From contig NZ_LMUE01000002.1 of assembly GCF_009766065.1 (NCBI RefSeq), forward strand, positions 1,275,740-1,339,739: 64,000 nucleotides of DNA. The letters run 5' to 3'. The notes under the pieces were generated by a model. It did not search any database, was not told where the DNA came from, and saw only the letters and a program-made list of their open reading frames with translations. The DNA is from Dyella sp. S184 (lineage in GTDB: Bacteria; Pseudomonadota; Gammaproteobacteria; Xanthomonadales; Rhodanobacteraceae). The position numbers were made by a program, and so were the translations under genes. This document shows, in pieces, positions 19,622 through 31,099 of the stretch (within the stretch, counting starts at the first letter, position 1; each line of letters starts with the position of its first letter).

Positions 19622-20656
19622 TCAATGGTGTGCATCCGGGGCGTCCTCTGGCTCAACGATGCCCACTCGAATCACTCGGGAGAAATCGTCTCCGGGCTTG
19701 CTGTTCCTGGCCCGTTCGGTGATGCGGCCGCGTTGACGCAGTTCGGCGATCGGCACGCGGCGATCCAGCGCGCCCACCTTGTAGAGGTATTCCGGCAGAT
19801 AGCCGGTCAGCAACAAACGGACATCCCAAGGCAGCCCGGGATCGATCTGTCTGGCCATGCGGTAGACGATGGTTGTGCAGTTTGACGTGATCGTGTTGTA
19901 GAACGCCGGGGTGACGGCCAGCCTGTTCGCGGCATGCACGTAGGAGAGGAACAGCGCGCGCATCGCAGCCCTGTCCATGCGCAGGGGATACAGGTAATCG
20001 TCCTCGCCGCGCACATTGGTGCGTACACGGATGATGTCGCGCTCGTCAGCGGCGGTCAGGATCGTTTCGAACTGCTTGAAGAAGCCGCCGATGGCCGAGT
20101 ACTGCTGGCCGCGTTTCTTGCGGATCTCCACCGAAAAGACCACGTGGCTGCCGTCGTCGAAGCCAAAGGAGATCATCGCGTGCGCGATAGCCGCGCTGCC
20201 CCAATAGGACAACACGGCATCGGCCGAGGCCAGGTGATCCAGGTCGTAGTGACGGGTTTCCCAGCGGGCATCGTAGTCGTCGTCGGTGCGCCAGCTGAAG
20301 TCGCGCACGTTGTTCAGGGTGACCTGGCTGCCTTCCACGTTACCGGTGAGCAGGCGGGATGTGTCGCCGGCCCAGATCCGGTTATTGGATGGCGCTATGC
20401 TCACCCACCAGAACATCAGAACGGCATAGCTCAAGACGTAGATGCCAAATGGCAACCAGCTACGCCGGTTGATCGCAAGGATGACCAGCGCGATCACGCC
20501 GATCACCCAGATAGCACTGCCGATCGTGCGGGTGGCCAGGTTGCCCGGCAATTGGTACCACAGCGCAAGAGCGCCCCACGCGCCCGAACAAAACGTGACC
20601 AGCGCCATCACCGCGATGAGTACCATCCGGCCGATCATCCAGAGCTTCTTCGCCAT
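19622..20656 (-). CDS. DUF4105 (Lnb N-terminal periplasmic domain) membrane protein
   Basis: A 344-residue protein with three N-terminal transmembrane helices (about 8-34, 46-62, 66-88) followed by a soluble DUF4105 domain (about 110-330). Conserved features include HAMISFGFDDGSHVVFSVEIRKK, the YNTITSNCTTIVYRM segment with a candidate catalytic-looking Cys, and the PGLPWDVRLLLTGYLPEYLYK segment. DUF4105 forms the N-terminal periplasmic part of Lnb-like proteins; biochemical function is not established. It is divergent from the hydrolase lipoprotein at 20834, with which it shares a 177-bp intergenic region. Confidence 0.88.
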   Translation of the reverse strand: MAKKLWMIGRMVLIAVMALVTFCSGAWGALALWYQLPGNLATRTIGSAIWVIGVIALVILAINRRSWLPFGIYVLSYAVLMFWWVSIAPSNNRIWAGDTSRLLTGNVEGSQVTLNNVRDFSWRTDDDYDARWETRHYDLDHLASADAVLSYWGSAAIAHAMISFGFDDGSHVVFSVEIRKKRGQQYSAIGGFFKQFETILTAADERDIIRVRTNVRGEDDYLYPLRMDRAAMRALFLSYVHAANRLAVTPAFYNTITSNCTTIVYRMARQIDPGLPWDVRLLLTGYLPEYLYKVGALDRRVPIAELRQRGRITERARNSKPGDDFSRVIRVGIVEPEDAPDAHH

Positions 20657-20833
20657 CTCGTTTCCGCCAGGTCAGCCAATGATCCAAGCGTGCCGCTTTG
20701 GCCGCACGAAGACAACGCACAGCCGAGGCATGCTCCGGAGCCCGCAGCCGGCTTCGGTCACCGTGGGAGTCGTCGTGATGATCCGCCATGGCTACAATCC
20801 GGCAACCGCCCGGCTGAATGGACACGACGCAGC

Positions 20834-22729
20834 ATGAAACGTGGAACGCGCGCCCGGATCACGCGATGCGTCGCCCTCGCCGTGCTGCTTTGCCTCAACG
20901 CCTGCGCGATGGTCGGAGTGAGTCGCGTCAAGACGCACGACTATGTCAACGAACGGCGTGCCGACGTGATCGGCGCCAACCGGTTGAGTGATCGTACGGT
21001 ACAGGCACTCAACGTGGTGGCGCTGACCGTCGACAGTTGCCAGCATGAATTCACCACCTGCACGGATACCGTTGCGCACTCGCCAGGGTTGAATGACGAA
21101 CAGCGACTGTCCGCGCTGGCCGAGCTGTGGCTGGGCAAGGCGATCAGGACCGATCGGGCCAAAGCAGGCACGGCGATGGAAGACCGGACCCTTGACGCGT
21201 TCCTGCAGTCCGCACGCTATGCCTATGCCTATCTGTTCTATACCGCGCGATCGCCCGCCGATCGCGCCTTCGCCCTGCGTCAGGTGCAGGTGATCGGGTT
21301 CTACAACTTTGCCGTGCAACGCACGGTGAGCCGCTTCTTCCAGGAGCTGCCGCAGTTGGGTGCGCAGTGGACGCAGACCTCGCTGGCCGGTTGGGCCGTG
21401 ATGCGCCCGCAGACTGATCTGCGGCTGGCCGACAACGCACGCGTACCGACCGAGCTGATTCCCGCAGCCGACCTGCGTTTCAAAGGGTTGCGCAACGTCT
21501 ACCAGCGCGATGGTTTTGGCTCGGACTTCGTCGCCGTGACGCCACCCGAAGCACCCAACGACGACGTGCCATGGCGAGAGCCCGACTACGCGTCGATGAC
21601 CGGTGCGCTGGTCTTCGATGGCAACACGCTGGACCAGGTGCTGTCGGCAAAGCGGGTGCAGTTGCTGGTCCGGGACCCCTATCGCGACGACACCATCACG
21701 ATTGGCGGCCGCACCGTGCCGCTGGGTGCGAACTTCACCGCCGCCTATGGCATCTGGCTGGCCCGCTCCGGCTTCGCCAGCCAGTCGATCCGTTCCCTGC
21801 TGGGCCGCGAGGGCGGCATCACGACACCGCGTGTGCTGATGATGCAGCCGTACGATCCCAATCGCCTGACCGTGGTCATGCTGCATGGGCTAGGCAGCAG
21901 CCCGGAAGCGTGGATCAACGTGGCGAACGAAGTCATGGGCGACGAGGAGCTACGCCGCAATTACCAAGTGTGGGAGATCTATTACCCCACCAACGCGCCA
22001 GTCGCGGTCAATCTCGCCAATATCCGCAAGGCACTCGATGCGACGCTGCAGCACTTCGACCCCTCCGGCCACGCACGCGCGTCGCAGAACATGGTGCTGA
22101 TAGGGCACAGCATGGGTGGCCTCATCGCACGCCTGCTGGTGTCATCGAGTGGCGACAAGCTGTGGAGCCTCGTGCCGGAGCGTGCCGATCTGTCGCCGGC
22201 AAAACGGGCCATGCTGCACGAACGCCTCGCGCCCTATCTGCAGTTCACGCCGATGCCGCAGGTGACCCGTGCCGTCTTCCTGGCCACCCCGCATCGCGGC
22301 ACGCCTTACGCCCAGCACCGGCTGGCACGCTGGATCGGCAACCTGGTCCGCCTGCCCCTCAGCGTGCTGAAGGAAGTGGCGAGCCTGTCCGACCTGCTGA
22401 AGGACGACACCAACACGGGTTCGCCCCTGCGCATACCCAACGGCATCGACAACCTAAGCGATACCGATCCTTTCATCGTCGCCGCCGCGAACCTGCCGAT
22501 CTCGCCGCACGTGCGCTATCACACGATTGTCGGCGTCTACAAATCTAAAGGCCCGTTGCAGTACAGCGACGACGGCCTGGTGCCCTACAAGAGCTCGCAC
22601 CTGGACGGCGCTGACTCCGAACTCGCCGTTCCCTCATGGCACAGCGTGCAGGAAACGCCTGCGGCGATCCTGGAATTGCGCAGAATTCTCAGGCTTCATG
22701 TAGCGGCGCTCGACGAAGCGCGGCCATAG
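20834..22729 (+). CDS. Lipoprotein alpha/beta hydrolase (PGAP1/lipase-like)
   Basis: A 631-residue lipoprotein. The ATG at 20834 opens a lipoprotein signal with lipobox LNAC (Cys about 23). An N-terminal helical region (about 30-340) precedes an alpha/beta hydrolase domain: TVVMLHGLGSSPEAW (oxyanion HG), nucleophile elbow GHSMGG with S426, and FLATPHRGTP. A candidate acid lies in SDDGLVPYKSSH and a His in SWHSVQETP. It is probably an envelope-anchored esterase or lipase; substrate unknown. A longer open frame upstream is antisense to DUF4105 and was not used. Confidence 0.9.
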   Translation: MKRGTRARITRCVALAVLLCLNACAMVGVSRVKTHDYVNERRADVIGANRLSDRTVQALNVVALTVDSCQHEFTTCTDTVAHSPGLNDEQRLSALAELWLGKAIRTDRAKAGTAMEDRTLDAFLQSARYAYAYLFYTARSPADRAFALRQVQVIGFYNFAVQRTVSRFFQELPQLGAQWTQTSLAGWAVMRPQTDLRLADNARVPTELIPAADLRFKGLRNVYQRDGFGSDFVAVTPPEAPNDDVPWREPDYASMTGALVFDGNTLDQVLSAKRVQLLVRDPYRDDTITIGGRTVPLGANFTAAYGIWLARSGFASQSIRSLLGREGGITTPRVLMMQPYDPNRLTVVMLHGLGSSPEAWINVANEVMGDEELRRNYQVWEIYYPTNAPVAVNLANIRKALDATLQHFDPSGHARASQNMVLIGHSMGGLIARLLVSSSGDKLWSLVPERADLSPAKRAMLHERLAPYLQFTPMPQVTRAVFLATPHRGTPYAQHRLARWIGNLVRLPLSVLKEVASLSDLLKDDTNTGSPLRIPNGIDNLSDTDPFIVAAANLPISPHVRYHTIVGVYKSKGPLQYSDDGLVPYKSSHLDGADSELAVPSWHSVQETPAAILELRRILRLHVAALDEARP

Positions 22730-22871: not shown

Positions 22872-24332
22872 ATGACGACGTCCTCCCACCTGCAAGTTGC
22901 CCGTTCCCGAACCGGCAGCCGGACGACTAGCGGGCAAAAGGTATCCAACACAGTTGAGGCGCATCTACCAAAGCAGACGCATATTCAGTCGATTGAGGAA
23001 CGGTTGAAGCTTGCGCGGTCCCTGCGATCCGATTGTCCGCGCAAGTCACATGCGGGTTGGAAACCTCCGAGGAATCGACATGACCCTGTTGACACACTGA
23101 TTGCCAGTTCCGAGGGACGCGTTCCCCATCTTGTACCCATACGTTATGGCCGCATGATGGAATCGCCATTCGCTTTCTATCGTGGTGGCGCAGCCATCAT
23201 GGCGGGGGACCTGGCGCATACACCCTCAACGGGTGTGCCTCTGCAGATCTGTGGTGATTGTCATCTATTGAACTTCGGTGGATTTGCCACACCCGAGCGC
23301 CGACTGGTTTTCGATATCAATGATTTTGATGAAACCAGCGTTGGCCCATGGGAGTGGGATATCAAGCGGCTTGCGGCAAGCTTCTTCATCGCGGCACAGG
23401 CCAACGGATTTTCCAGGGATGTAGGACGGGATGCTGCCTGGTACGCGACCAGCGCTTATCGCGATCGCCTGATCGAGTACGGAGAAATGCCGCTGCTCGA
23501 AGCCTGGTATGACTACCTCGATCTCCACAAGATCATTGATCAAATCGCCGATCCGACGATGAAGAAGCTCGCGACATCGCGGCTGAGAAAAGCCACCGAA
23601 TATACGGTGCACACCAAGGAATTCGTGAAATTCGCCGTGGCGGATGGCCTGCCTCCACGTATTCGCGATGAACCACCGCTCATCTACCATGACGATGCAA
23701 GCGACGCGGTCAAGAACCGCAAGGTGGTCGATCGCGCCTTCGCGCATTATCGCCTCACGCTTCAGCCGCAAAGGCGGCTTCTGCTGGATCGTTTCAAGAT
23801 TGTCGATGTGGCGATGAAAGTGGTGGGTGTCGGCAGTGTGGGGACGTATTGCGGCATCCTGCTCATGGTCTCCGGCTCGGGGGACCCGTTGTTCCTGCAG
23901 TTCAAGGAGGCGCGAACCTCGGTCATCGAACCCTACGCCGGCGCGAGTATCTACAAGCATCACGGCCAGCGCGTGGTCGTCGGACAGCGCATGATGCAGT
24001 CGGCAAGCGACATTTTTCTTGGGTGGACCCGGGGTGGTACACGCCAGTTCTATGTTCGCCAACTTCGCGATGCCAAGATCTCTCCTGACACCACCGTCAT
24101 GAAGCCGACGAATCTTCGCAACTATGCAAAGCTCTGTGGGCGGGCCTTGGCGCGTGCGCATGCGCGAACCGGCGACGCGGTAATGCTGGGCGCATATCTA
24201 GGGAAAGGCGATGCCTTTCCGGATGCCATTGCATCGTTCGCTGCTGGCTACGCCAATCAAAATGAACGTGATCACCAGGCGCTCGTACGTGCCGTGCGCC
24301 AGGGGCGTGTCGAGGCACGCGTCATTGGTTGA
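22872..24332 (+). CDS. DUF2252 domain-containing protein
   Basis: A 486-residue cytoplasmic protein matching DUF2252 over nearly its whole length: RYGRMMESPFAFYRGGAAIMAGDLA at about 92-116, then ICGDCHLLNFGGFATPERRLVFDINDFDET, which resembles the catalytic loop and DFD motif of aminoglycoside-phosphotransferase-like kinases, then EWDIKRLAAS. A later GDPLFLQFKEARTSV and QRMMQSASDIFLGW are also typical. The family is uncharacterised; the kinase-like resemblance suggests phosphotransfer but this is inference. The N-terminal 45 residues are Ser/Thr/Arg-rich and less conserved. Flanking genes are not obviously related. Confidence 0.88.
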   Translation: MTTSSHLQVARSRTGSRTTSGQKVSNTVEAHLPKQTHIQSIEERLKLARSLRSDCPRKSHAGWKPPRNRHDPVDTLIASSEGRVPHLVPIRYGRMMESPFAFYRGGAAIMAGDLAHTPSTGVPLQICGDCHLLNFGGFATPERRLVFDINDFDETSVGPWEWDIKRLAASFFIAAQANGFSRDVGRDAAWYATSAYRDRLIEYGEMPLLEAWYDYLDLHKIIDQIADPTMKKLATSRLRKATEYTVHTKEFVKFAVADGLPPRIRDEPPLIYHDDASDAVKNRKVVDRAFAHYRLTLQPQRRLLLDRFKIVDVAMKVVGVGSVGTYCGILLMVSGSGDPLFLQFKEARTSVIEPYAGASIYKHHGQRVVVGQRMMQSASDIFLGWTRGGTRQFYVRQLRDAKISPDTTVMKPTNLRNYAKLCGRALARAHARTGDAVMLGAYLGKGDAFPDAIASFAAGYANQNERDHQALVRAVRQGRVEARVIG

Positions 24333-26620: not shown

Positions 26621-26682
26621 GGCAGCTCTCCGGATTCGCTCATCCGCAAGGATGCCATGTCGGAAGGCCAACTTCACTCACG

Positions 26683-27339
26683 TTACCCGCGCGGTTTACC
26701 CCGAGCACGTTTTCTGGCACTCACGGCTCGAGGCCCATCCTTGGCTGCCAGGGCCCCACCGTCGCTCATCTGTTCCATCCACGACATGGTGTCGACGTAC
26801 GACAGGAACTGCTGGAGATACCCTGGCGAAAGCTCGCGCATGAGGGTGAGCGACCGGTGTACGAGGCTGCCCGAGTTGAGGGGGCCAGCATTGGCAGGCA
26901 CCTGCTCCAGCGACTGCCGAACCTGGCTTTTCGTGCGGACCTCGGACCAGGTTTTTCTGAACTCATCGAGCGCCTCCAATTTTGGAAAAATGGAGACCTG
27001 AGAAGATGCGTCACTCGCGGCGAGATCGTCGTCGCGCGTCGACGCGTAGTTGGCGATGTGATCGATCAGTCCGCCCAGCGCCCCACGAGCAGGTGTGCAT
27101 GACGTTGTCGCGTTGTTGGCATGGCCTGGGTTTGATGCCGCGATTTCGAGATCGTCGGCGTAGGCATCGATAAGCTTGGACAGTCTGTCGTCCAGAATTC
27201 GTCGCGCCTCGCCATCGTGACCCGTCGCGCGCCGCTCCAGCGCTTCAATGAAATGAAATTGCAGGGGATTCAGGCGATCGGCGTCCTGCTCGCGCCACGC
27301 GTCGAGTATTGCCCGGGCGCGTGTTTCGCTATTACTCAT
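26683..27339 (-). CDS. DUF2894 protein, last gene of motor-like operon
   Basis: A 218-residue soluble protein of the DUF2894 family. The N-terminal 70 residues are predicted helical (RARAILDAWREQDADRLNPLQFHFIEALERRA), the middle is a variable linker, and the C-terminal half holds LNSGSLVHRSLTLMRELSPGYLQQFLSYVDTMSWME, the family signature. It ends in a basic tail (ARKRARGKPRG). No enzyme motif or membrane segment is visible. Its ATG overlaps the OmpA-protein stop by 8 bp, so expression is coupled to the ZorB/MotB-like gene. Role unknown; by position it may be a cytoplasmic partner of the motor complex. Confidence 0.85.
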   Translation of the reverse strand: MSNSETRARAILDAWREQDADRLNPLQFHFIEALERRATGHDGEARRILDDRLSKLIDAYADDLEIAASNPGHANNATTSCTPARGALGGLIDHIANYASTRDDDLAASDASSQVSIFPKLEALDEFRKTWSEVRTKSQVRQSLEQVPANAGPLNSGSLVHRSLTLMRELSPGYLQQFLSYVDTMSWMEQMSDGGALAAKDGPRAVSARKRARGKPRG

Positions 27340-27979
27340 GAGGCGTCACGGTCGCCGTCGGCTGCTTCGGGATGGGTGAAATTTCCACACGCCGGTTCCG
27401 CGCCCGCCCCTCGTCATCGGCATTCGAACTCGCCGGCTGCTCGGCACCGAACGCGGCAGCAAATACCGAGGAGGCCGGGAGGCCATCGACGATCAAGGCA
27501 CGGGTCACGGTCAACGCGCGCTCGGCGGACAACTCCCAGTTGTCGGCAAACTGCCGATTGCCATCGCGTACTTGCCGGTCGTCAGTGAAGCCGCTCACCA
27601 TCAGGATTTCGTCGCGAGACTTGAGGTAGTCGGAAAGCGGGGCCGCCAGACTCTTCAATACCTCTCGCCCTTCCGGCTGAAGCTGATCGGAGTTCAGCGC
27701 GAACAACACACTGCCGCGAATACCGATGCGCCCATTGACGAGCGTCACCCGGCCAGCGGCCAGCGGAACCGCCAACGCCTGCTCCAACGTCATTCGGCGT
27801 TGCGCCTCGGTCTGTCGCTGTTTGACTGCTTCATCCAGCTTGTTCGAGAGTTGCAGCTGCACGCCGATCACGCCTACCAGGATCAGCACGAACACACCCA
27901 GCAGCACCGACATCAGGTCGCCGAAGGCAGCCCAGATCGGTGCTGTCGACTCCTCGACGCCATCAAGTTCGTCGCTCAT
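27332..27979 (-). CDS. MotB/ZorB-like OmpA-domain protein
   Basis: A 215-residue protein with one N-terminal transmembrane helix (about 17-39) and a periplasmic OmpA/MotB peptidoglycan-binding domain (about 80-200; FTDDRQV, NWELSAERALTVTRAL, NRRVEI). The segment WAAFGDLMSVLLGVFVLIL places Asp21 at the start of the helix, as in MotB D32 and ZorB, where it carries protons. The region between is a short helical linker (about 42-75). It overlaps the DUF802 gene by 4 bp (ATGA) and DUF2894 by 8 bp. Stator-like role with the DUF802 protein is inferred from fold, charge and operon. Confidence 0.9.
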   Translation of the reverse strand: MSDELDGVEESTAPIWAAFGDLMSVLLGVFVLILVGVIGVQLQLSNKLDEAVKQRQTEAQRRMTLEQALAVPLAAGRVTLVNGRIGIRGSVLFALNSDQLQPEGREVLKSLAAPLSDYLKSRDEILMVSGFTDDRQVRDGNRQFADNWELSAERALTVTRALIVDGLPASSVFAAAFGAEQPASSNADDEGRARNRRVEISPIPKQPTATVTPHE

Positions 27980-30072
27980 GCCATTTCGGCCCCGGCGAGC
28001 GCCCGTTGGCTGGTGAGCTGCTGCATTTCCTCGATGATCTGCTGCTGCGACAGCATGCTCAGGTCGATCACTTCCCTGGCCTGCGCCACGTAATAGGCCA
28101 GCTGTTCGTCACTGCGCGAGAGAGATTTGTCCAGCGCGGTTTCGATGCGCTGCAGGTGCTCCATCAACATGCCGTTCGACTCGCCGAACGTCTGTACGGC
28201 CAGGCCGAATACTTCGCCCAGACTGGCCACTTCGACGGCACTGCCGGTGACTTGCGCAGCCACCGCGCCAAGCTTGCCGGTTTCGGCCTCGATATGGTCG
28301 GTGAACCGGATGCTGACACGGTCCAGCAGATCCGCCGACGTGGCAACCAGCGTATCGACGGCCAATCGTTGCTCGGTGGACGCGTGGTTCACGGCATCGA
28401 GCAGGGTATCGAGCGTGGCCATCAGACGGCTGCGTTCCTCCAGCATGGCGGTATCGCGGACCATGCTGTCGGAGAGTTTCTGGCGCAGTTCGGCGACGAC
28501 TTCGGCCGCCGCCTTGGGCGCTTCGGACGCGGCTTCCACGAGCCGGGAAATCTCGGCGATCGTGTTGCTGGCGTGTGCCTGTGTCTGTGCCGAAATATCG
28601 CACGCGGTCTTCGCCAGGGTGTCGCAGATCTCCTGCTGCCGGCTCGCGGTGTGCGCGCTCGTCTGCTCCCAGTGCTTGCTCAACGCAGCGCTCATCGAAC
28701 CAAACGCATCTGTCCAGGTCGTCAAGCGTTCCTGATCCCGCGATTCCAGCACCGCCTGCAAGTCCGCATGCGACTTGTGCACGCTGCGGACCAGCGACGT
28801 CGCGTACTCCTCGAGCGTAGTCACTGCGACGGTCAACGCTTGCTGATTGCGTGCCGCCAGATCCTCGTTGACGGCTTCTTGCCGCGACAGCGCGTTGTTC
28901 CACGCGCTCGCCGCGTTGCCCGCCGTGGCGTCGAGGCGTGCAGCGACACCTTCCAATAGAGCGGCCGAGCGTTGCTCGAAGGTTTCGGTGTATCGCTGCA
29001 GTGAGCTGCGCATGTCTTGAACAAGCGCCTCGTTCGATCGCTGCTGCTCCGCCAGTGCATCGTTCCAGATCGCCGCCATGGTCGTGGTGGTCGTCTCGAG
29101 GCCGGTCGACAGTCCCCCCAGCTGACGCTGCACGGCGTGTGTAACGGTGTCGTGGAACGATGCTGCTTCGCGTGCAAGACCGGCCATCGTGGCCTCCATC
29201 GCCGGTTGCAGTGCTGCCCCGACAGCGAGGGCACTCTCGGCGACGCTCTCCTTCAACGACGCCTCCACGGAGGAGGCAAGGCGTGTATAGGTTGCCTCGG
29301 TCTTCGCGTGGAAGGTTTCATGCCTGGCCATCTGCCGTTCGCTGGTGGCCATGCTCTGTTGTTCGATCGTCACCATCATCATCTGCAGACGATCGACCAG
29401 GGTAGGCATCAATTCGGTCTGCTGCTGCAGGAGCTTGAACGATTCCTCGCGCTGATGGCTTTGCGAATAGATGCGCAACGTCGTCGCGATTTTCACGTCC
29501 AGCAGCTGCACCGCCTGCAGCCGCTCGCGCCGGCAAAGCGCAGAAAGCAGCCCGAGCATCGCCGAACTGGCCACACCTGCGATCGAGGTACCGAACGCAA
29601 ACCCCAGACCCTTGACCGGTGCGGCGAGAGAGCCTCGGATCGCCTGCAGATCTGTCGCGCTTTCCAGCGCCATCCCGGTGCCGCGAAGAGTCGCCATCAT
29701 GCCCAGCAGCGTACCCAGCATGCCCAGCAAGACGAGCAAGCCAACCAGATACGGCGTCAGCGCCGGCAGAGGCAACGCTGCGCGCTCACCCTCGATGCGG
29801 AGGCGTGTCGCGTTGCGCAGGCTGGGATGCAAGCGGCCGAGCCAGTCACTCAAGCTGGTCGGCGCTGCGCACAAATCCGTAACGACGCGCGTCAGCGAGA
29901 ACGTGGCTTGCCGGTAGCGGTGCAGCTCAAGTGCGCCTGCCAGGTAGCACGCGCCAATCAACATCGTGACGGCCGTCGCCAGCGGATTGGATCCGATGTA
30001 GCCGGCACCGATCCAGCACACAGCGGCAAGGCCTATAAAGAACACGGCGAGATTTAGAAGATTTCTGAACAT
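27976..30072 (-). CDS. DUF802 protein: MotA/ExbB/ZorA-like membrane head with ~520-residue helical tail
   Basis: A 698-residue protein from ATG 30072, 10 bp after the DUF3348 stop. Four transmembrane helices are seen: about 5-27, 31-49, 106-128 and 155-179. The third (LVGLLVLLGMLGTLLGMMATL) and fourth (KGLGFAFGTSIAGVASSAMLGLL) match the two pore-lining helices of the MotA/TolQ/ExbB family. Residues 180-698 form a long Ala/Glu/Gln/Ser-rich helical or coiled-coil tail with degenerate DUF802 repeats, marked by WNDAL, WNNAL and WTDAF spaced by about 55-62 residues. A cytoplasmic tail of this size on a MotA-like head recalls Zorya ZorA. No motif suggests chemotaxis or flagellar linkage. Confidence 0.9.
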   Translation of the reverse strand: MFRNLLNLAVFFIGLAAVCWIGAGYIGSNPLATAVTMLIGACYLAGALELHRYRQATFSLTRVVTDLCAAPTSLSDWLGRLHPSLRNATRLRIEGERAALPLPALTPYLVGLLVLLGMLGTLLGMMATLRGTGMALESATDLQAIRGSLAAPVKGLGFAFGTSIAGVASSAMLGLLSALCRRERLQAVQLLDVKIATTLRIYSQSHQREESFKLLQQQTELMPTLVDRLQMMMVTIEQQSMATSERQMARHETFHAKTEATYTRLASSVEASLKESVAESALAVGAALQPAMEATMAGLAREAASFHDTVTHAVQRQLGGLSTGLETTTTTMAAIWNDALAEQQRSNEALVQDMRSSLQRYTETFEQRSAALLEGVAARLDATAGNAASAWNNALSRQEAVNEDLAARNQQALTVAVTTLEEYATSLVRSVHKSHADLQAVLESRDQERLTTWTDAFGSMSAALSKHWEQTSAHTASRQQEICDTLAKTACDISAQTQAHASNTIAEISRLVEAASEAPKAAAEVVAELRQKLSDSMVRDTAMLEERSRLMATLDTLLDAVNHASTEQRLAVDTLVATSADLLDRVSIRFTDHIEAETGKLGAVAAQVTGSAVEVASLGEVFGLAVQTFGESNGMLMEHLQRIETALDKSLSRSDEQLAYYVAQAREVIDLSMLSQQQIIEEMQQLTSQRALAGAEMA

Positions 30073-30082
30073 GACGTCCCAG

Positions 30083-30790
30083 TTAGTTGGTGCGAAGCGC
30101 TGCGAGCAGGCCTTCGACCGGGTGAAAACGAACGTCCAGTTCGGCGAGCAGCACGCTCTGCACATCCTTGCGAAACACATCCAGCCATGCCCCAGGCGCT
30201 ATCGCCGGGGCGCCCTCCGATACTTGCGCGTCGGCCAACGCCTTCTGCTCGGTCTGACGCAACCGTTCGAAGTGTTCCCCAAGTAACGCGGGCACGTGGT
30301 CCAATAGAGTCTGCTCGCGCGGGCTCAGTGCACGCTCCATGACGGCATCCACTGCCGCCAGCCGCGCCATGTCGGCCGTCCTCTGGGCAAGCATGTCCCG
30401 CAGACGGCCTCGCAGGTTGCCGGTGGCCGCCTGCATCGACCGCTGGATGGCGAGATAGCGCTGACGAAACACCGAGTAATCGACCGCCTCATTCGCGCCA
30501 CCCTCCTTGGCGAATGCGCGATCGCCAGCAATGGTACTGACCAACGAGGCACGCACACGGGCGCACTCGTTCTCTTCAGCGCTGCCAAAGGTCGGCACGT
30601 CGAAGCCCACCGCAGATGGCTTGCCGTCAAGCGATGTGGACAGCGCAACGGCGTGAGTCCAGTCGAGCCATTGGCCCAGCCGGTCCGAGAGCGATTGTCT
30701 GGATGGGGAAACGTCGACGTCCGTCAGGCGAGCAAGCAAGCGAATGAACGTCGGGCCACGGACACTCGTCCGTTGAGGAGCTTGCACCAT
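30083..30790 (-). CDS. DUF3348 protein, first gene of motor-like operon
   Basis: A 235-residue protein of the DUF3348 family, from ATG 30790; a TTG at 30805 is an alternative. It is soluble and mostly helical: RGPTFIRLLARLTDVDV near the N-terminus, then LSDRLGQWLDWTHAVALS, a VFRQRYLAIQRSMQAATGNLRGRLRDML segment, and a C-terminal ERLRQTEQKALADAQ...WLDVFRKDVQSVLLAELDVRFHPVEGLLAALR. No catalytic motif is seen. It opens the four-gene operon and is always found, to my knowledge, with DUF802/OmpA partners. Its role is unknown; a regulatory or adaptor role to the motor is possible. Confidence 0.85.
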   Translation of the reverse strand: MVQAPQRTSVRGPTFIRLLARLTDVDVSPSRQSLSDRLGQWLDWTHAVALSTSLDGKPSAVGFDVPTFGSAEENECARVRASLVSTIAGDRAFAKEGGANEAVDYSVFRQRYLAIQRSMQAATGNLRGRLRDMLAQRTADMARLAAVDAVMERALSPREQTLLDHVPALLGEHFERLRQTEQKALADAQVSEGAPAIAPGAWLDVFRKDVQSVLLAELDVRFHPVEGLLAALRTN

Positions 30791-30985
30791 ATTTCTTGCT
30801 GGCAAACGGCCATTTTACACGCTAACCGGGTGGAGGCTGCTGTCTGTCGAACAGAGGGTAAGCGGTCGATTTGGCCGTCTGATCGTGCAGCGAAAGCGAG
30901 CGCGTTTTATGCGCTTATCGCCGCTGAAAACTCACGTCAACGGCAATCAGTGTTGCTTGTGCCAGTTCGCCACCCGGAAAAGCAA

Positions 30986-31008: not shown

Positions 31009-31025
31009 TAAGTCTTTGATCGCAA

Positions 31026-31099
31026 TGGAGGCCTAGGTCGGAATCGAACCGGCGTACGCGGCTTTGCAGGCCGCTGCATGACCACTCTGCCACCAGGCC
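31026..31099 (-). tRNA. tRNA-Cys (GCA)
   Basis: A 74-nt minus-strand gene with encoded CCA (31026-31028). The acceptor 5' strand GGCCTGG pairs with CTAGGCC, discriminator T. The anticodon loop reads CTGCAAA, anticodon GCA, and the T-loop is TTCGATT. It follows tRNA-Gly copy A, but a terminator lies between, so it may have a separate weak promoter or depend on read-through. Confidence 0.95.

Follow-up and report, generated by a model that had tools for sequence, protein, structure and literature searches.

A probable Zorya type III anti-phage system in Dyella sp. S184 and a near-whole-turn rule for the length of its ZorA tail

A cluster of four genes in Dyella sp. S184 encodes a pair of membrane proteins that look like the core of an ion-driven motor, and beside them two helical proteins of the families DUF3348 and DUF2894. 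The cluster thus raises the question what the motor is for and what it drives. The DNA analysed here, called the window, is a stretch of 64,000 nucleotides, and an ORF check confirmed all four genes at 26683-30790 on its minus strand. The features of the locus are:

30083..30790, minus strand: DUF3348 gene (zorG3 in PADLOC; ZorF in Payne 2021 and Mariano 2025); 235 aa, all-helical, soluble
27976..30072, minus strand: zorA3 (DUF802 protein); 698 aa, of which the ~520 beyond the four TM helices form a helical tail
27332..27979, minus strand: zorB3; single-pass protein with Asp21 heading the TM helix and a predicted OmpA-type peptidoglycan-binding domain
26683..27339, minus strand: DUF2894 gene (zorF3 in PADLOC; ZorG in the papers); 218 aa, helical, with a conserved basic C-terminus
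30791..30850, minus strand: upstream leader of ~60 bp, conserved with the operon at other sites in the genus; putative promoter/RBS
31026..31099, minus strand: tRNA-Cys (ARAGORN), just upstream of the operon

Transcription runs from the DUF3348 gene across a 10-bp gap into the DUF802 gene, from there through a 4-bp overlap into the OmpA gene and through an 8-bp overlap into the DUF2894 gene. The tight coupling claimed in an earlier note on this DNA is therefore borne out by the ORF coordinates. The DUF3348 gene starts with the ATG at 30790; the ORF list opens this frame 15 bases earlier at a TTG. The same order and strand of all four ORFs were found in 76 of 80 named loci, and in the remaining four (L044, L049, L057, L062) the set is cut by a contig end. 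The DUF2894 ORF is short in two Luteibacter loci among the 76 (179 aa in L085 and 126 aa in L089, as called); here the partner gene may have decayed or been misread. Between the gene segments of the operon, pairwise distances show correlations of 0.71-0.88, which is expected for a jointly inherited unit, but shared host ancestry alone raises this value too.

According to hydropathy, the DUF802 protein has four TM segments (5-23, 30-48, 109-127 and 158-176). Since TM4 ends at residue 176 of 698, ~520 residues lie beyond it. In the OmpA protein, Asp21 heads the one strong segment (22-40); a second, weak one (161-179; 1.55) falls inside the OmpA domain. The Pfam matches of the pair are DUF802 (1.2e-27, in two stretches) and OmpA (3.4e-18), and together with hydropathy they agree with the earlier description of a four-helix protein with a tail of this length and a single-pass OmpA-domain protein with Asp21 heading its TM helix. 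Conservation of Asp21 across homologues had been proposed as a check. An alignment of 27 ZorB has the residue in every row, and it is an aspartate in 76 of 76 ZorB (75 by pattern and the one misfit by eye, since its printed stretch reads FGDMMS); non-conservation was not seen. In ZorA, T121, T162 and S163 of TM3/TM4 are nearly invariant in 27 aligned rows, which is a lower bound because the rows L050, L101 and L114 begin too far downstream to include the membrane part. In PDB sequences, the OmpA-type domain of ZorB3 matches MotB and PomB chains. Its Asp-bearing helix aligns with FADLMS of the flagellar motor protein 8bri_F, which we take to be PomB; the short piece alone is not significant.

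On the side of the A subunit, the Pfam model MotA_ExbB (PF01618) did not match the DUF802 protein at E<=1, and a search of the organism's own genome with this model found three other genes, ZorA3 not among them. Searches with ZorA3 against PDB sequences found neither a ZorA nor a MotA chain. Because PF01618 does not detect ZorA3, only the Zorya models connect the protein with MotA/ExbB, and the kinship is remote. The missing Pfam match speaks against the earlier wording that TM3 and TM4 match MotA/TolQ/ExbB pore helices; the ZorA1 model does match in this region. A study on MotAB evolution from 2025 regards the homology of ZorAB as remote and omits it from the trees (PMC12505986).

The identity of the cluster emerges from the PADLOC models of Zorya type III, which match all four proteins, each its own model. 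ZorA3 matched the ZorA3 model with E=0 and ZorA1 with 2.1e-8 (best stretch residues 111-195, the TM3/TM4 region), and ZorB3 matched ZorB3 with 6.7e-116, ZorB1 with 8e-19 and ZorB2 with 7.8e-8. By these far stronger E-values, the motor pair belongs to the subfamily of type III and not to I or II. The DUF3348 protein matched PDLC00658 (1.9e-93) and Pfam DUF3348 (2.2e-90), the DUF2894 protein PDLC00652 (5.9e-83) and Pfam DUF2894 (1.5e-63). Payne et al. 2021 counted 6,401 pairs of zor genes with DUF3348 and DUF2894 genes on their flanks and named them Zorya type III (PMC8565338); here, too, zorA and zorB are flanked by genes of these two families. PADLOC matches and the 2021 description together identify DUF3348 and DUF2894 as Zorya partner genes. 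It should be mentioned that the names clash: in PADLOC-DB (PDLC00652-00658) DUF2894 is ZorF and DUF3348 is ZorG, and the papers from 2021 and 2025 reverse them. PADLOC detected no ZorC plus ZorD and no ZorE beside zorAB in ten neighbours at 1e-3, and among 64 proteins, including 33 window genes, there was no Zor match at 1e-10.

The earlier note had seen a motor operon without Zorya effector genes and knew of no function for the DUF set. Both statements are mistaken: it is by its partners DUF3348 and DUF2894 that type III is defined, and type III was described in 2021 with anti-phage activity, the system of Stenotrophomonas nitritireducens having lowered plaquing in E. coli for one phage or more (PMC8565338). 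The reading that followed from them, a motor operon unrelated to Zorya and with a new role, can draw on the failure of PF01618 to detect ZorA3 and the remote kinship to MotA/ExbB. Against four direct type III model matches and the weaker ones to ZorA1, ZorB1 and ZorB2 it is hardly credible; as to identity the PADLOC matches refute it, although a different natural role is possible. A new motor family is ruled out by the same type III matches. Very probably, the four-gene cluster is a complete and typical Zorya type III anti-phage system, for a homologue of which protection has been published. Zorya type III is already a described defence type and the cluster is not new in kind, but what appeared to be an orphan motor becomes a named defence system. 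Of the roles offered before (envelope sensing, protein transport, defence) only defence has published support. The PADLOC ZorA3/ZorB3 matches, the weaker ones to ZorA1 and ZorB1, the invariant Asp21 and the helical tail support the earlier idea of an ion-driven motor that resembles ZorAB and has a long tail.

Does the operon also occur in the way expected from a defence system? It could instead encode a housekeeping envelope machine, a force transducer of the Tol/Ton/Mot kind, and the anti-phage effect in E. coli would then be a side effect of over-expression. DUF3348 is present in only 15 of 45 genomes of the genus, and the operon is patchy more widely (53 of 147 genomes of the family, 8 of 321 of the class); the nearest named relatives are from Rhodanobacter, with 76-87% identity in DUF3348. 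The surroundings of the operon were compared in five of the other 14 carriers in the genus. In three (G425, G436, G372) it lies at another site, as a block of ~4.1-4.2 kb with 84-87% DNA identity that spans window positions 26664-26734 to 30849/30850. In a fourth (G456), again at another site, DNA identity is 75% and the match ends at 30839. The 19-kb stretches of these four genomes contain no further DNA match >80 bp (E<=1e-10). The fifth (G469) has the operon at the window's own tRNA-Cys/pgsA/uvrC site (counterpart L042). From the different sites in the first four we conclude that the operon moved or was rearranged within the genus. Patchiness within the genus and other sites in close relatives speak against a housekeeping machine, and so does the published plaque reduction (PMC8565338).

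The company of the operon speaks for a housekeeping role. On three plasmids that were read, its neighbours are mostly metabolic, though L181 has an AbiEii-type gene, an IS3 transposase and an integron integrase <9 kb from the operon, and in L180 an IS5 transposase adjoins it. The 80 named loci were sampled at 21, with three genes taken per side and ORFs <100 aa and >900 aa excluded; the 121 flanking proteins gave five protein-family matches in PADLOC at 1e-10. In a control, 64 proteins gave 15 matches, so the flanks are no richer; this control is not random, since 33 of its genes come from the window and 31 from the tRNA side in eight genomes of the genus, with some orthologues counted multiply. 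In the window, the neighbours are genes for a GH3 glycosidase, a DUF2252 protein, a hydrolase-like protein, a TonB receptor and a multicopper oxidase, and none of ten neighbours had a PADLOC match at E<=1e-3. The survey for defence-island enrichment that had been suggested thus found none, neither at the window nor at the 21 other loci. Furthermore, a figure legend from 2026 lists the type III Zorya of R. solanacearum among core/quasi-core 'HCADS', an acronym that the legend leaves unexpanded. Taking both sides together, we consider a housekeeping function unlikely and continue with the reading as a defence system.

Among 72,556 plasmid records, 27 have a DUF3348 match, and 20 of these exceed 1 Mb; among 50,697 phage records there was none. 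In a FastTree of 77 operons one branch separates beta- from gammaproteobacteria, and for this reason we do not claim gene transfer between the two groups. A DUF3348 with 67% identity is on a 5.5-kb contig binned as Acidobacteriaceae (L049), possibly by a binning error.

The operon-side DNA of the tRNA-Cys differs from the window in 11 of 12 genomes of the genus that were fetched. Their similarity to the window breaks off close to the 3' end of the tRNA-Cys, at 31021/31022 in eight and at 30982/30983 in three genomes. Among the loci L118-L129 this side (31021-31026) is variable: three have integrase/phage/primase-type genes, six a common other neighbourhood, one the Zorya operon, and two are different again. 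L129 has an integrase, L126 phage capsid and protease genes, and L128 a primase-type gene with neighbours in common with L126. A mobile island at the tRNA-Cys was partly entertained; Pfam revealed no integrase among the six left-hand window genes, and 21 bases from the 3' half of the tRNA-Cys (31030-31050) did not recur elsewhere in the window at <=3 mismatches. The DUF2252 gene (22872-24332), located between the GH3 gene and the gene at 19934-22729, has no DNA match in the similar G469 locus (L121), which suggests a local gain or loss.

A long helical ZorA tail, by which type III is also recognized, is present as judged by sequence periodicity. The tail was compared in 127 ZorA3, made up of the window's protein, 77 from named loci and 49 from a second, partly overlapping genome collection. 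Since loci are shared by both collections (e.g. G425 and L039), the protein counts are not independent; because of this overlap, the tests use distinct lengths and were repeated without multiples and on the named loci alone. The 127 proteins are 555 to 1207 residues long. The exact tail length of the window's protein recurs in 52 of 113 anchored ZorA3, the window included; the other 14 of the 127 were not anchorable and were omitted from the tail-length differences. A tandem repeat (top offset score >=150, identity >=0.35, a cut chosen by us) is present in 52 of 127. The longest ZorA3 here, with ~1200 residues, are those of Achromobacter L092 and L104, which reach this size via tandem units of 131 residues.

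The repeats have 12 distinct unit lengths: 29, 33, 40, 51, 62, 69, 80, 87, 98, 102, 131 and 149 residues. All 12 lie <=0.08 turn from a whole number at 3.633 residues per turn (R=0.966), and 0 of 20,000 random sets were as good under each of two null models, with the best period left free per set. Omission of multiples leaves nine units with R=0.974, and the nine units of the named loci alone gave R=0.965 at 3.632, again with 0 of 20,000 random sets as good. A scan of periods from 2.3 to 6 residues had its best value at 3.636. In 22 chosen tails the hydrophobic stripe has its peak at 3.64, and in the window's own tail at 3.645, with a power of 6.1 compared to <=2.8 in 20 shuffles.

Tail lengths were also compared directly to that of the window. 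Six distinct differences (11, 22, 40, 55, 58, 73), from nine proteins without a repeat except the basal 55, gave a mean cosine of 0.895 (p=0.00015). A looser no-repeat set, which includes two proteins with weak 29-residue repeats that are excluded from the stricter one, gave p=0.00025; in it, a difference of 99 misses the whole turn by 0.25. Total differences of repeat-bearing proteins fit well but imperfectly, with a mean cosine of 0.69 over 20 lengths and several values as much as a third of a turn away from a whole number: 99, 132, 186, 495 and 502 miss by 0.18-0.33, and 174 and 261 by 0.11 and 0.16. Of these, 99, 132 and 186 are multiples of the 33- and 62-residue units, in which small misfits accumulate. 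Altogether, the periodicities support the notion that the ZorA3 tail is a continuous amphipathic helix that would keep register between motor and tip. The phase rule is what a drive shaft requires, but it is equally the requirement of any five-helix bundle; rotation does not follow from it, since any continuous helical bundle would fit. An earlier report of a phase rule for ZorA was not found in the literature searched, which was that outside subscription journals, and the near-whole-turn rule for the tail length is the own addition of this analysis.

What could such a tail act on? For DUF3348, AlphaFold2 gave an all-helical model with eight helices (mean pLDDT 82.7, pTM 0.78); the model of DUF2894 is weak (pLDDT 63.2, pTM 0.35). 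Hydropathy revealed no TM segments in either protein, in line with the earlier view of two soluble proteins. Fold searches with both returned nothing significant, DUF3348 not rising above helical-bundle noise, and neither had a nuclease or helicase match in the profile libraries scanned, including Pfam and PADLOC. All 77 DUF2894 sequences have a net charge of at least +4 in their last 25 residues, and from this composition a contact of the basic C-terminus to nucleic acid or membrane is possible.

Partners with no nuclease or helicase match, an invariant Asp21 and the proposal of Payne et al. 2021 that DUF3348 and DUF2894 regulate ZorAB (PMC8565338) would all suit a gated proton leak. The two proteins would keep the ZorA3B3 channel shut, a phage would open it, and the membrane potential would collapse in an abortive infection. 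However, no Zorya-mediated depolarisation was reported for types I and II, the types tested in that study (PMC11890865), and a simple leak needs no long phase-locked tail. We therefore hold a leak to be rather doubtful.

In a bolder reading, which is possible but less likely than not, the tail is a phase-locked drive shaft. Among gains and losses of 29 to 149 residues, mainly blocks of whole turns of a helix with 3.63 residues per turn would have been kept; the tip would then meet DUF3348 and DUF2894 at a constant rotational angle to the motor, and type III would be a system with no enzyme of its own that stops phages by switching these two small helical proteins mechanically. The main reading, a Zorya type III system, goes less far. 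By analogy to types I/II, in which defence needs the ZorB aspartate, the peptidoglycan-binding residues and the ZorA tail (PMC11890865), five ZorA would surround two ZorB. ZorB would grip peptidoglycan disturbed by phage entry, ion flow past the aspartate would turn or rearrange ZorA, and the five ZorA tails would form a rod that reaches into the cytoplasm. For type III we suggest that the conserved far end of the rod (residues ~486-680) docks or switches DUF3348 and DUF2894. Although no nuclease or helicase can be recognised in them, these two may then attack the invader, perhaps via the basic tail of DUF2894. The tail rule makes the shaft idea testable: changes of nearly equal length in and out of helical phase should differ in effect. 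This matters because type III is the least understood Zorya; its parts have no nuclease or helicase match, and neither a structure nor a mechanism was found in the literature searched.

Among known systems, Zorya type III itself is the closest (Payne et al. 2021, PMC8565338): the genes and their order are the same, the models match all four proteins, and judged by gene order and PADLOC models no distinguishing feature was found. Zorya types I/II (Mariano et al. 2025, PMC11890865) likewise have a ZorA/ZorB core with a critical aspartate, a peptidoglycan-binding domain and a long tail, but they carry ZorC/ZorD or ZorE, of which none was found among the genes scanned here; DUF3348 and DUF2894 take this place. 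The flagellar stators MotAB and PomAB likewise have an OmpA-type domain and an Asp-bearing helix that aligns, the latter below significance when taken alone; in contrast to them, the A subunit of the Dyella system has no Pfam MotA_ExbB match and extends into a long cytoplasmic tail.
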